Origin: an uncultured Croceitalea sp.
Lineage (GTDB): Bacteria > Bacteroidota > Bacteroidia > Flavobacteriales > Flavobacteriaceae
Assembly (NCBI GenBank): GCA_937969515.1
Contig: CALBVX010000170.1
Span: forward strand, 1-35,965
Direction: 5' to 3'
DNA: 35,965 nt
Shown: one piece after another, positions 2,247 through 18,765 of the stretch
Numbering within the stretch: position 1 is the first letter of the stretch
Layout: every line of letters begins with the position of its first letter
Program-made: the position numbers and the translations under genes
The notes under the pieces: model-generated
What the model was told of the DNA's origin: nothing
Databases searched by the model: none
Seen by the model: the letters and a program-made list of their open reading frames with translations, nothing else

Positions 2247-2441
2247 ATGAGTAAAGGAACAGTAAAATTCTTCAATGATTCTAAAGGTTATGGTTTTATC
2301 ACTGAAGACGGTTCAAACACAGATCACTTTGTACACATTTCAGGCTTAATCGATGAGATTCGTGAAGGTGATGTTGTAGAATTCGAACTACAACAAGGTA
2401 AAAAAGGATTGAACGCCGTAAATGTACAAGTTATAGATTAA
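2247..2441 (+). CDS. Cold-shock protein (CspA family)
   Basis: A 64-residue single cold-shock domain, the usual size. RNP1 is seen as KGYGFI (residues 13-18) and RNP2 as HFVHI (27-31); G-T-V-K-F-F-N at 4-10 is the conserved first strand. Such proteins bind single-stranded RNA and DNA and melt secondary structure, acting as RNA chaperones in the cytoplasm. It is monocistronic, with its own -7 box at 2209 and an intrinsic terminator 28 bases after the stop. Confidence 0.95.
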   Translation: MSKGTVKFFNDSKGYGFITEDGSNTDHFVHISGLIDEIREGDVVEFELQQGKKGLNAVNVQVID

Positions 2442-2500: not shown

Positions 2501-2547
2501 TTCATTTTGTTTAACTTTTTACGCAACCAATTCAAAATATTGCCTCT

Positions 2548-2562
2548 TATTGTTAAACAATA
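2548..2562. repeat. 15-bp palindrome TATTGTTAAACAATA upstream of small gene 1
   Basis: Two perfect 7-bp arms surround a single central A. It lies about 20-30 bases before the start of the first tiny membrane-protein gene and has no T tract, so it looks more like an operator than a terminator. The binding protein is unknown. Confidence 0.35.
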
Positions 2563-2581: not shown

Positions 2582-2680
2582 ATGAAGATAACCATGATTA
2601 CCTTTTTTGGAATACTTTCTATACTGCTTGCCATTAATATTTTTATGTTATTTGCGAGTATTAGTAAATCTAAAAAATAA
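2582..2680 (+). CDS. Tiny single-span membrane protein, TFF-IN family, member 1
   Basis: The ORF encodes 32 residues from ATG 2582, or 28 from ATG 2594. The second start is preferred because it aligns the protein (M-I-T-F-F-G-I-L-S-I-L-L-A-I-N-I) with members at 2751 and 18586. It is a hydrophobic helix of about 20 residues ending in Ser-Ile-Ser-Lys-Ser-Lys-Lys, which suggests a positive tail in the cytoplasm. No function is known to me. That three copies with the same pattern sit in one window is the main evidence that it is translated. Confidence 0.6.
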   Translation: MKITMITFFGILSILLAINIFMLFASISKSKK

Positions 2681-2701
2681 GTAGGGTTTTTCTGCGTTAA
2701 G

Positions 2702-2729
2702 TTGTTATACATGAAAGCGTCATTCTTTG
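2702..2729 (+). promoter_or_regulatory. Candidate promoter of small gene 2
   Basis: TTG at 2702-2704 and ATTCTTTG at 2722-2729 are separated by 17 bases. The -7 element differs from TAnnTTTG in its first two bases. It ends 21 bases before the ATG at 2751. Confidence 0.35.
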
Positions 2730-2886: not shown

Positions 2887-3828
2887 CTATTTGACATCCA
2901 TCAATTCAACATCAAATATTAAAGTTGCATCTGGTGGTATCACTCCCCCCGCACCGGAATTACCATAACCTAAATGCGACGGAATTACAAAGCGGGCCTT
3001 ATCACCTACTTTCAATAATGCAATCCCTTCATCCCAACCAGATATTACCTGCCCTACGCCAAGTTGAAAATCTATTGGTTGATTTCTTTTAAAAGAAGAA
3101 TCAAAAACCTGCCCGTTTGGCAAACTACCTTCATAATGAACCGACACGGTCTTCCCCTTTTCGGCTTTGACACCAGAACCAGTTTGAATCATTTTATAAC
3201 GCAATCCAGATTCTGTTTTATCAAAACCGGCAGCAAGCTTCTCCATGGCAGCTTCGGCTTTAGCTTTTTCTTCTGCAATTCTTTTTGCGCGAGAGCCTTC
3301 AAAAGTACGGAAAGCTTCAATTGCGTTCCAATTTTCTGCCTCAACTCCAGACCTAACAATTTCTAAACTATCTATCGTATCTCCTTGAGCTATGGTATCT
3401 ACAATTTCTTGTCCGTGTTCAACATGACCAAAAACCGTGTGCTTATTATCTAACCAAGGTGTTGGCACATGAGTGATAAAAAATTGACTTCCATTTGTAC
3501 CTGGGCCAGCATTTGCCATAGATAAAACTCCTGGCTCAGAGTGATTCAGTTCAGGATGAAACTCATCATCGAATTGATATCCTGGGCTTCCAGTTCCGGT
3601 TCCTTGCGGGCACCCTCCTTGTATCATGAAATCTGGGATTACCCTATGAAATTTTAGACCGTCATAATAAGGTTTACCCTGTGGCTTGGCCTTATTTTCC
3701 ATATTGCCCTCGGCAAGGGCAACAAAGTTACCTACTGTTCCTGGGGTTTTATCGTGGGTTAATTTCACTAAAATCTCGCCTTTTGTAGTATTAAATTTTG
3801 CGTAAATACCGTCTTGCATCTTACTCAT
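2887..3828 (-). CDS. Dual-domain peptidyl-prolyl isomerase (cyclophilin-FKBP fusion)
   Basis: Of 313 residues, 8-160 are a cyclophilin domain: FHRVIPDFMIQGG with catalytic R62, GTNGSQFFIT at 110-119 and W125 in the position that binds cyclosporin. Residues 165-205 form a charged helical linker rich in Ala, Glu and Lys. Residues 205-313 are an FKBP domain with Y/F pocket residues (VHYEG, VFDSS), W265 in ISGWDEG and the GYG...IPPDATLIFDVEL end. Both active sites look complete. Fusions of this order are known as dual-family immunophilins (CFBP) in Flavobacterium. No signal peptide, so it folds proteins in the cytoplasm. It is monocistronic. Confidence 0.93.
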   Translation of the reverse strand: MSKMQDGIYAKFNTTKGEILVKLTHDKTPGTVGNFVALAEGNMENKAKPQGKPYYDGLKFHRVIPDFMIQGGCPQGTGTGSPGYQFDDEFHPELNHSEPGVLSMANAGPGTNGSQFFITHVPTPWLDNKHTVFGHVEHGQEIVDTIAQGDTIDSLEIVRSGVEAENWNAIEAFRTFEGSRAKRIAEEKAKAEAAMEKLAAGFDKTESGLRYKMIQTGSGVKAEKGKTVSVHYEGSLPNGQVFDSSFKRNQPIDFQLGVGQVISGWDEGIALLKVGDKARFVIPSHLGYGNSGAGGVIPPDATLIFDVELMDVK

Positions 3829-7161: not shown

Positions 7162-8325
7162 CTATTTGCTCGCAAAAAGCTTTACATCATCTTCAGTAAC
7201 TTCTTTTCCTCCTAATATTATTAAACGTTCTATTACGTTACGTAGCTCTCGTACATTACCGGTCCAATCGTAGGTTTTTAGCAATTCGACAGCTTTTTTA
7301 GAAAAGTCTTTTGGTGCCGTGCCCTGTTCCGTGGCAATCTTTTTTGCAAAGTGCGAAATTAGCATTGGTATATCATCCCTTCGGTCATTCAAAGAGGGAA
7401 CCTTTATTAAAATAACCGCCAAACGATGATAAAGGTCTTCCCTAAAATTACCTTCTTCAATTTCCTTTTTTAGGTCTTTATTTGTAGCAGCTACTACCCG
7501 CACATCTACCTTAATATCCTTATCGGTACCTACACGAGAAATTTTACTTTCTTGTAAAGCGCGCAAAACTTTAGCTTGGGCAGAAAGGCTCATGTCTCCT
7601 ATTTCATCTAAAAATATAGTGCCCTTATTCGCTGCCTCAAACTTTCCAGCTCTATCTTTCACAGCCGAAGTAAACGCCCCTTTAACGTGCCCGAAAAGCT
7701 CACTTTCAATAAGTTCTGAAGGAATTGCAGCACAATTAACTTCGATAAAAGGCGCCGAAGAACGTTGGCTTTTTTCATGAATCCAATGGGCTACCAATTC
7801 TTTACCTGTACCGTTAGAACCGGTTATAAGAACACGTGCATCGGTAGGGGCAACTTTTTCGATCATATCTTTAATAACACCTATTTCTTTGCTCTCACCG
7901 ATCATCTCATAATTTTTGCTGACCTTTTTCTTGAGAATCTTATTTTCAACAACCAATTCTTTTCTGTCGAGCGCATTACGCACTGTGGTCAGTAAACGAT
8001 TCAGATCCGGTGGTTTTGAGATATAGTCAAAAGCCCCTAAACGCATCGTGTTTACCGCGGTGTCTAAATCGCCGTGACCGGATATCATAATAAAGGGAAT
8101 TTCAGGCTTTAGCTTTCTAGCGGCCTCAAGAACTTCGACCCCATCCATTTTTGGCATTTTAATATCGCAAAGTACTAGGTCAAAATCTTCCTTTTTAATG
8201 GTTTCGATACCCTTAAGTCCATCTTCTGCCTCTTGCACATTATACGAATCACTTTCTTCACTTAATATTTTCACCAAAACTCTTCTAATCGCCGCCTCGT
8301 CTTCAATTACCAGTATTTTTGACAT
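7162..8325 (-). CDS. Sigma-54-dependent response regulator without DNA-binding domain
   Basis: 387 residues. Residues 1-120 are a receiver domain with acidic pocket E8-D9, phospho-acceptor D54, S82 and K104. Residues 140-370 are a sigma-54 AAA+ domain: Walker A GSNGTGKE (169-176), the sigma-54 contact loop GAFTSA (216-221) and Walker B GTIFLDE (235-241). The protein stops at EVTEDDVKLFASK, just where the C-terminal Fis-type helix-turn-helix of NtrC proteins should begin, so it probably acts without binding DNA, as known for FlgR of Helicobacter. It is the last gene of a five-gene unit and has no adjacent histidine kinase. Confidence 0.93.
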   Translation of the reverse strand: MSKILVIEDEAAIRRVLVKILSEESDSYNVQEAEDGLKGIETIKKEDFDLVLCDIKMPKMDGVEVLEAARKLKPEIPFIMISGHGDLDTAVNTMRLGAFDYISKPPDLNRLLTTVRNALDRKELVVENKILKKKVSKNYEMIGESKEIGVIKDMIEKVAPTDARVLITGSNGTGKELVAHWIHEKSQRSSAPFIEVNCAAIPSELIESELFGHVKGAFTSAVKDRAGKFEAANKGTIFLDEIGDMSLSAQAKVLRALQESKISRVGTDKDIKVDVRVVAATNKDLKKEIEEGNFREDLYHRLAVILIKVPSLNDRRDDIPMLISHFAKKIATEQGTAPKDFSKKAVELLKTYDWTGNVRELRNVIERLIILGGKEVTEDDVKLFASK

Positions 8326-18285: not shown

Positions 18286-18474
18286 ATGTTCAGCACCGGA
18301 CAATTGATTTTTGCAGTATTTTTCGCGATATCTTTTATATCCCTTATCGTCTTCTCTTATAAAAAAGACAAAAAAATACATTTAAAGAATTACAAAGGTG
18401 TGGTTTGGGTGCTGTTTTCGTTTGTATTTTTCTTAATATTTCTCTTTTTAATTAAATACTTCCTTAAAAATTAA
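18286..18474 (+). CDS. Small two-span membrane protein, unknown
   Basis: 62 residues, not recognised. Two hydrophobic spans (about 6-25 and 39-60) enclose a short, strongly basic loop (YKKDKKIHLKNYKG), so both ends are probably outside and the loop is in the cytoplasm. A -7 box lies directly upstream, which supports expression. It does not share the T-F-F...I-N-I pattern of the nearby tiny protein at 18586. Confidence 0.65.
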   Translation: MFSTGQLIFAVFFAISFISLIVFSYKKDKKIHLKNYKGVVWVLFSFVFFLIFLFLIKYFLKN

Positions 18475-18554
18475 CAAGAAAATTACTTACACCACAAAAA
18501 TTTCGACTTTCACAACATAATTGGGCTCTTGAACGTATAATATAAGAAAACACG

Positions 18555-18562
18555 TACTTTTG
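18555..18562 (+). promoter_or_regulatory. -7 box TACTTTTG of small gene 3
   Basis: A perfect TAnnTTTG ends 23 bases before the ATG at 18586. A TTG lies 23 bases upstream of it, slightly farther than the usual spacing. Confidence 0.5.
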
Positions 18563-18585: not shown

Positions 18586-18765
18586 ATGATTACATTTTTT
18601 AGCATTCTTCTTGTATTGCTTTGCATTAATATTTTGCTACTTGTGTTTAGTTTAAAAGGCGTGTCTGGAAACAGTAAAAAGAACATTCATAAGATTTCTC
18701 AGAACGCTGTTCCTAAACTTTATCCTGAACAATACTCGAAAACCGCCTACAAAAAAGCTGTTTAA
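18586..18765 (+). CDS. Small single-span membrane protein, TFF-IN family, member 3
   Basis: 59 residues. The N-terminus M-I-T-F-F-S-I-L-L-V-L-L-C-I-N-I followed by L-L-L-V-F-S-L matches the whole of members 1 and 2. A basic tail of about 35 residues follows (SGNSKKNIHKI, then PKLYPEQYSKTAYKKAV). A -7 box sits just upstream, so it is likely a real gene. The tail, rich in Lys and Tyr, is probably cytoplasmic and could contact RNA, lipid or a protein partner; this is inference. It lies between the two-span small protein and crcB. Confidence 0.72.
   Translation: MITFFSILLVLLCINILLLVFSLKGVSGNSKKNIHKISQNAVPKLYPEQYSKTAYKKAV

Follow-up and report, generated by a model that had tools for sequence, protein, structure and literature searches.

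The window examined here, a stretch of 35,965 nucleotides from an uncultured Croceitalea sp., carries three small open reading frames on the forward strand which code for single-span membrane proteins. Two of them lie close together: the first short gene (class B, 2594-2680) codes for a protein of 28 aa, MITFFGILSILLAINIFMLFASISKSKK, and the second short gene (class C, 2751-2834) for one of 27 aa, MNTFFTILLVLLIINIFLLLVSLNSAK. The third, the long gene (class A, 18586-18765), codes for a protein of 59 aa with a polar tail and the end YKKAV. The lengths given for these ORFs in the preliminary description were borne out by translation, and direct comparison of the translations reproduced the 13 positions reported there as identical in all three. 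An in-frame ATG four codons 5' of the first short gene is present in the window and absent in G003, which makes 2594 the likelier start of the 28-aa gene.

The short genes lie between a cold-shock protein gene (2247-2441, forward strand; Pfam CSD, 5.8e-19) and a gene for a cyclophilin-FKBP peptidyl-prolyl isomerase (2887-3828, reverse strand; Pfam Pro_isomerase, 2.5e-44, and FKBP_C, 3.4e-35) that is convergent with them. Both the short-gene and the long-gene sites were read in 36 genomes of 30 genera (the window, 30 blocks in one piece and five split pairs), all of them chosen for matches already seen at both sites. The isomerase gene is present at the short-gene site in 36 of 36 genomes, with the short genes near its 3' end and pointing towards it. 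The cold-shock gene is a usual, not a constant, neighbour: it was not detected in L075, L090, L091, L099, and L101, in L095 it separates the short genes from the isomerase gene, and L093 starts too close to tell. The next upstream neighbour of the long gene, a gene for a 62-aa hydrophobic protein (18286-18474, forward strand), keeps its position upstream of the long gene in the 36 genomes read, and its product matched no Pfam family above cut-off. On the other side, the long gene precedes crcB wherever crcB was detected (none was detected in L091, and L093 ends there). Gene order in the approximately 16 kb between the two sites is largely the same in the one-piece blocks. This conserved 16-kb block also contains a gene for a sigma-54-type response regulator (window 7162-8325), together with dnaJ and grpE.

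Coding, conservation, and the promoter sharing described below are features that can be read from the sequences themselves, and we regard the three ORFs as real genes of a conserved family of single-helix membrane proteins of marine flavobacteria which fall below the usual gene-calling limits. The preliminary description held that the resemblance among them exceeds chance. This was upheld by the findings that 232,095 bases of shuffled DNA yielded no ORF scoring as high as 9, the lowest score used, and that relatives hold ORFs with the same start and a similar length in the same places. It had also named a lack of homologues with synonymous-biased substitutions as evidence against the genes; such homologues were found. 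In close relatives, synonymous changes exceed amino acid changes per site in all three genes, and orthologue dN/dS was 0.06-0.24 in the 7 of 22 comparisons in which it could be computed, the synonymous sites being saturated in the others. Orthologues of the 28-aa gene occur in G001 and G003 (dN/dS against the window 0.10 and 0.12), and those of the 27-aa gene in G001, G002, G003, and G005 (pS 0.75 and pN 0.03 against G001); for the 59-aa gene, dN/dS was 0.12 against G001. Between the window's own 28-aa and 59-aa paralogues the ratio was 0.92, which points to divergence between these two at the level of the protein.

The ORFs had been presented as a family of three, which proved to be an undercount. 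Further members occur at several sites in Flavobacteriaceae, the family members ranging from 26 to 67 aa, and orthologues with conserved gene order are found across the Croceitalea-Maribacter-Zobellia-Arenibacter clade. The long form is present in 7 of 7 other genomes of the same genus, and a search of named genomes (53 loci, ten of which were left out of alignment A4) found it in Croceitalea, Croceivirga, Zobellia, Maribacter, Arenibacter, Kriegella, Euzebyella, and relatives. The three ORFs are the only matches to the long form at E up to 10 in the window's own genome (G000; 2.09 Mb, 54% complete). A second set comprised genomes in which the long form had matched and no short form was listed; of the 15 regions fetched, nine contained the isomerase gene, and a short gene was found at the isomerase site in six of these nine (with low scores in L277 and L281) and in none of L275, L279, and L288. 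In a family-level sample of 299 genomes, 177 had a match, often a weak one, at E up to 0.01. Weaker matches were checked at 20 loci, 15 of which held an ORF scoring as a member, two of them doubtful (L199 and L216), and five of which did not. Some of these members adjoin the 62-aa gene, and seven adjoin a uracil-DNA glycosylase (ung) gene (here and below, the ung, recR, LacI-like regulator, TrhO, and lipoprotein-like genes are named from sequence). When 295 genomes of the class were searched with a profile, no convincing member emerged outside Flavobacteriaceae: four genomes matched at E up to 0.001, namely the window's own, G220 (likely of the same taxonomic family), G533, and G510, and the matches in the last two, which lie inside frames of 154 and 178 aa, were not accepted as members.

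Two single loci add to this picture. In G175, the 62-aa gene and the long form are separated by a strongly diverged second member of 56 aa (L084, 1892-2062), which suggests a duplication there. In G123, recR-like and sodium-solute-symporter-like genes, both named from sequence, flank a member that ends in KKAS (L218, 1438-1620), and this is a further genomic site of the microprotein family.

Among 133 distinct N-termini weighted by similarity, from which two of the 53 loci (L117 and L134) had been dropped for a wrongly picked ORF, conservation was 100% for Asn15, 97% for Ser22, and 95% for Leu11, the value of 100% for Asn15 in the long set being partly by construction, since long forms from named genomes had been picked with an Asn15 filter. 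No such filter was applied to the short set, in which Asn15 is present in 56 of 56 under a scoring profile that itself favours this residue. Conservation peaks at 100 degrees per residue (permutation p ~1e-4), and the conserved face consists of F4, I7/L8, L11, N15, L18, and S22. The idea, raised at the outset, that the asparagine and serine mark a specific contact is consistent with conserved positions lying on one face at this periodicity. AlphaFold gave one helix at residues 3-24, and the tail of the long form was modelled with low confidence. The C-side of the helix is positively charged in 62 of 76 long forms, 50 of 56 short forms, and 10 of 12 other members, so that the positive-inside rule predicts an N-out, C-in topology. 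The long form ends in KKA plus one residue in 74 of 76 distinct sequences of the collected set (KKAV in 59 and KKAI in 11); other ends, such as YSIS or ATGS, are found in several members outside the main clade.

The proposal that the family is undescribed was sustained by all searches made. The three microproteins matched no Pfam or NCBIfam family above cut-off, nor anything in PHROGs or PADLOC at E up to 1; no Rfam family was found in the window at gathering scores; and the literature searched, which included few subscription papers, held no recognisable description of the microprotein family or of the GTAGGG box described below. Some weak similarities were considered and rejected. The YxzE-like putative bacteriocin family (PF25184) scored 13.6 bits with the long form and 10.1 bits with the 27-aa form (cut-off 40 bits), ComGC in NCBIfam gave E 0.0081 and 16.3 bits (cut-off 75), and the one match among solved structures (E 0.83) was taken as chance. 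A TatA/E translocase subunit was likewise not retained, with no TatA among Pfam hits that had passed the HMMER filters, which drop most weak matches; the short forms leave scant space for the amphipathic helix expected of TatA/E.

The DNA upstream of the genes is conserved differently for each of the classes A, B, and C. Promoter C of the second short gene (2681-2706, forward strand) starts directly after the stop codon of the first short gene and consists of GTAGGG (2681-2686), a spacer of 16 nt, and TGTT (2703-2706). The same GTAGGG-N16-TGTT box precedes fecR in 24 of 24 readable ECF-FecR loci, that of the window's own genome included (30 loci were fetched, six of which were left out of this count, their fecR start not being readable), and it lies 48-50 nt before the fecR start with N16 spacing throughout. 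At this locus fecR follows the gene for an ECF sigma factor of 166 aa, both identities being given by Pfam, and precedes a gene for a carboxypeptidase-regulatory-domain protein, as in TonB-type receptors, inside which the locus ends. Among the 56 short genes collected, counted with box letters fixed by the search pattern, the GTAGGG-N16-TGTT box precedes 24; two class C genes were scored as N13 because the pattern stops at the first TGTT, and in these an N16 TGTT is also present. Similar box patterns matched shuffled 90-nt segments at ~1e-4 each. In eight genomes the strict GTAGGG pattern gave 18 sites, in seven of the eight, versus 0 for the reversed control. Six of these sites lie before fecR and three before class C micro-genes; three precede a non-coding transcript candidate, two the gene for a hydrophobic protein of 54-55 aa, and four genes whose products are exported or lipoprotein-like. 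The strict pattern occurs in the window's own genome only before fecR and the class C gene. Promoter sharing is thereby well supported for the class C gene as far as sequence can tell, and so long a box shared with fixed spacing is strong evidence, short of proof, of shared sigma control.

The occurrence of the ECF sigma factor sets some limits on this assignment. With an identity of at least 73%, it was found in 37 of 38 genomes, and every one of the 24 genomes that have a short gene behind a C box possesses it; G315, which alone lacks a close ECF, has no C-box gene at its short-gene site. When co-loss of class C gene and ECF was examined, the ECF proved to be kept in all 11 genomes whose short-gene site holds a short gene of B type only. 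Thus the class C protein is not required by the system and would be an optional target of it. Since targets may be lost, these B-only genomes limit, without excluding, membership of class C genes in the regulon.

Two of the other outputs of the GTAGGG box may be described here. At L160, L171, and L161 (in G001, G003, and G005), a conserved stretch without a long ORF lies approximately 115 nt after the box; read by eye, it has small hairpins and a GC-rich, terminator-like end, and it is a candidate small RNA of the ECF-FecR regulon. The small RNAs of E. coli sigmaE follow a comparable logic. At L162 (G166) and L169 (G025), the box precedes the gene for a different hydrophobic protein of 54-55 aa (MDVINEII... 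and MDVLNVII...), and the protein at L162 matched no Pfam family.

Promoter B of the first short gene (2523-2548, forward strand) has ECF-like -35 and -10 elements, GCAACC (2523-2528) and, after 16 nt, TCTT (2545-2548), as opposed to the commoner TCTA. With the same fixed-letter scoring, GCAAC[CT]-N15/16/17-TC[TA] was found upstream of 28 of the 56 short genes; four of the 56 have neither a B nor a C box close by, two of them with a B-type box further upstream. The 17 genomes with a single short gene divide into 11 with a B box, five with a C box, and one with neither, so the paralogues are mostly distinguishable by promoter. At the ung site, a B-like box precedes four of seven members, with variant letters in three (L206, L213, and L215), and the remaining three (L199, L207, and L211) are without it. 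In four genome searches the B pattern was modestly above its reversed control, with 3 vs 4, 10 vs 2, 9 vs 3, and 22 vs 11 sites, four genomes of the last search having been chosen because a micro-gene in each had a B box. The 35 distinct B sites precede nine micro-genes, 12 lipoprotein-like genes, five TrhO/YceA genes, three family-2 glycosyltransferase genes, and one LacI-like regulator gene; three lie inside genes and two were not assigned. The Pfam search covered one TrhO-type protein, one glycosyltransferase, and two lipoprotein-like proteins, and neither of the latter two matched a family above cut-off. No ECF sigma or anti-sigma gene was recognised among the first ORFs after the 35 sites. 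The gene kinds behind the B box appear coherent, and we consider this box less certain than the GTAGGG box.

The long gene differs again. Its promoter block A (18534-18562, forward strand), CGTATAATATAAGAAAACACGTACTTTTG, ends at its 3' side in a TAnnTTTG box, TACTTTTG (18555-18562), and a TAnnTTTG box precedes the start of 31 of 37 long-type genes. Searched with up to two mismatches, the block was found once each in seven of eight genomes, always at the long gene, and not in G272. The reading of this promoter as part of a sigma regulon was dropped, block A being found only at that one gene; it has the look of a promoter of vegetative type that also carries the site of a private regulator.

We consider it fairly probable that these inner membrane microproteins of Flavobacteriaceae are outputs of envelope-stress signalling and act through one helix face, either on a partner that they share or on one another. 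Envelope signals would release ECF sigma factors, and these would then activate envelope genes along with a single copy of the membrane microprotein. The class C gene would be driven by the 166-aa ECF sigma factor of a system of the ECF-FecR-TonB-receptor type that also drives its own fecR, and the class B gene by a second, putative ECF-type sigma factor also controlling lipoproteins, TrhO, and a family-2 glycosyltransferase. The class A long gene would combine a gene-specific promoter with a flexible cytoplasmic tail whose nearly fixed KKA[VI] end would suit a cytoplasmic partner. The helix, lying N-out and C-in, would use its conserved face to pack against further copies or against a membrane partner common to all of them. 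The best-supported step is sigma control of class C in this scheme, as judged from the shared box; the contact made by the helix face, the binding of a partner, and the role in stress we infer from the patterns of conservation and promoters. Since the helix face is kept among copies with differing promoters and tails, these most likely have a single target in common or act on one another, and one membrane activity could in this way be switched by different signals. We put forward more tentatively, as a possibility that may well not hold, the broader idea that one transmembrane-helix module has become a general envelope-stress effector in flavobacteria, duplicated and rewired so that separate ECF sigma factors each have a private copy and a third copy answers to a gene-specific input.

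Other explanations have to be weighed against this one. The conserved face, the strong selection, and the presence in every other genome of the genus examined would fit a structural partner, and paralogues with different promoters and little difference in the helix would fit isoforms. The proteins might then be small isoform subunits of one inner membrane enzyme or transporter complex, for which CydX and KdpF are models, with paralogues swapped in under stress. We hold this for doubtful, though worth keeping in view: no constant neighbour at the short-gene site encodes a membrane complex, the neighbours being usually csp and the convergent isomerase gene, and ECF-type promoters are unusual for a constitutive subunit.

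It is also conceivable that the microproteins are feedback regulators of the sigma factor pathways themselves, with an anti-sigma factor or the FecR-processing intramembrane protease as their target, much as PhoQ is the target of MgrB. The promoter box that the class C gene and fecR have in common points in this direction. The predicted topology, with a positive C-side, is however opposite to that usual for substrates of RseP, none of the 11 genomes limited to a B-type short gene at the site has lost the ECF, and other targets would be needed for the other paralogues, which together render such a function unlikely, even if E. coli RseP is reported to cleave both FecR and small membrane proteins (PMC10470546).

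A toxic function is less credible still. Hydrophobic type I toxins held in check by antisense RNAs, such as Ibs, Ldr, Fst, and TisB, are alike in size, hydrophobicity, and tandem layout, and a scan for antisense promoters, made with the sigmaA consensus only, gave two full promoters at 37 long genes (0.65 expected). The same scan gave none at 56 short genes (1.2 expected), and inheritance at fixed sites, a conserved polar residue, a conserved end in the long form, and the lack of any PADLOC or PHROGs match all argue against toxins, so that we regard this reading as clearly unlikely. Finally, that the ORFs are not translated and the DNA is conserved only as promoters or small RNAs is hardly tenable: conservation does extend to the promoter boxes, and elsewhere the same GTAGGG box stands before a non-coding transcript candidate, but codon-position bias, low dN/dS, and an N-terminal pattern that recurs in open frames of 36 genomes from 30 genera speak for translation.

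Envelope-stress signalling, the reading that we prefer, can be set beside several known systems. MgrB and AcrZ are single-span microproteins which each act on one named membrane partner; no homology to them was found in the family searches made here. The microproteins lie outside every protein family tested, and their mode of action would resemble that of stress-induced small membrane proteins of E. coli. Among these, YohP is similar in its length of about 27 aa and its membrane location, and stress induction would be expected for the present proteins as well; one study links YohP to starvation and stationary phase (PMC12719787). The present family differs from YohP in that its paralogues are tied to ECF-type promoters and that one of them has a conserved tail. 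With regard to ECF sigma-FecR-TonB receptor signalling (FecR, PF04773; Sigma70_r4_2, PF08281), its fecR promoter box is common to the class C gene, and compared with the core parts of such systems the class C microprotein would be an extra target encoded elsewhere in the genome. A set of ECF-type promoters called SM6 has been reported for F. psychrophilum, and it includes that of YceA, a rhodanese-related gene (PMC9723704). The B box precedes a YceA-type gene in five genomes here, a likeness of gene kind only, and the SM6 promoters are described with a CGT box in the -10 region, in contrast to the TCTA of the B box (PMC9723704). What is new is the apparent assignment of tandem paralogues of one microprotein to different sigma factors.

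In this way, what was an anonymous hydrophobic ORF becomes a testable system with a conserved promoter box, a candidate sigma factor, and an output of 27 aa. The GTAGGG-N16-TGTT box offers a promoter signature for an ECF-FecR system that is kept in nearly every genome of the clade examined. Moreover, these findings suggest that the outputs of alternative sigma factors in Bacteroidota can include microproteins too small for usual gene calling.
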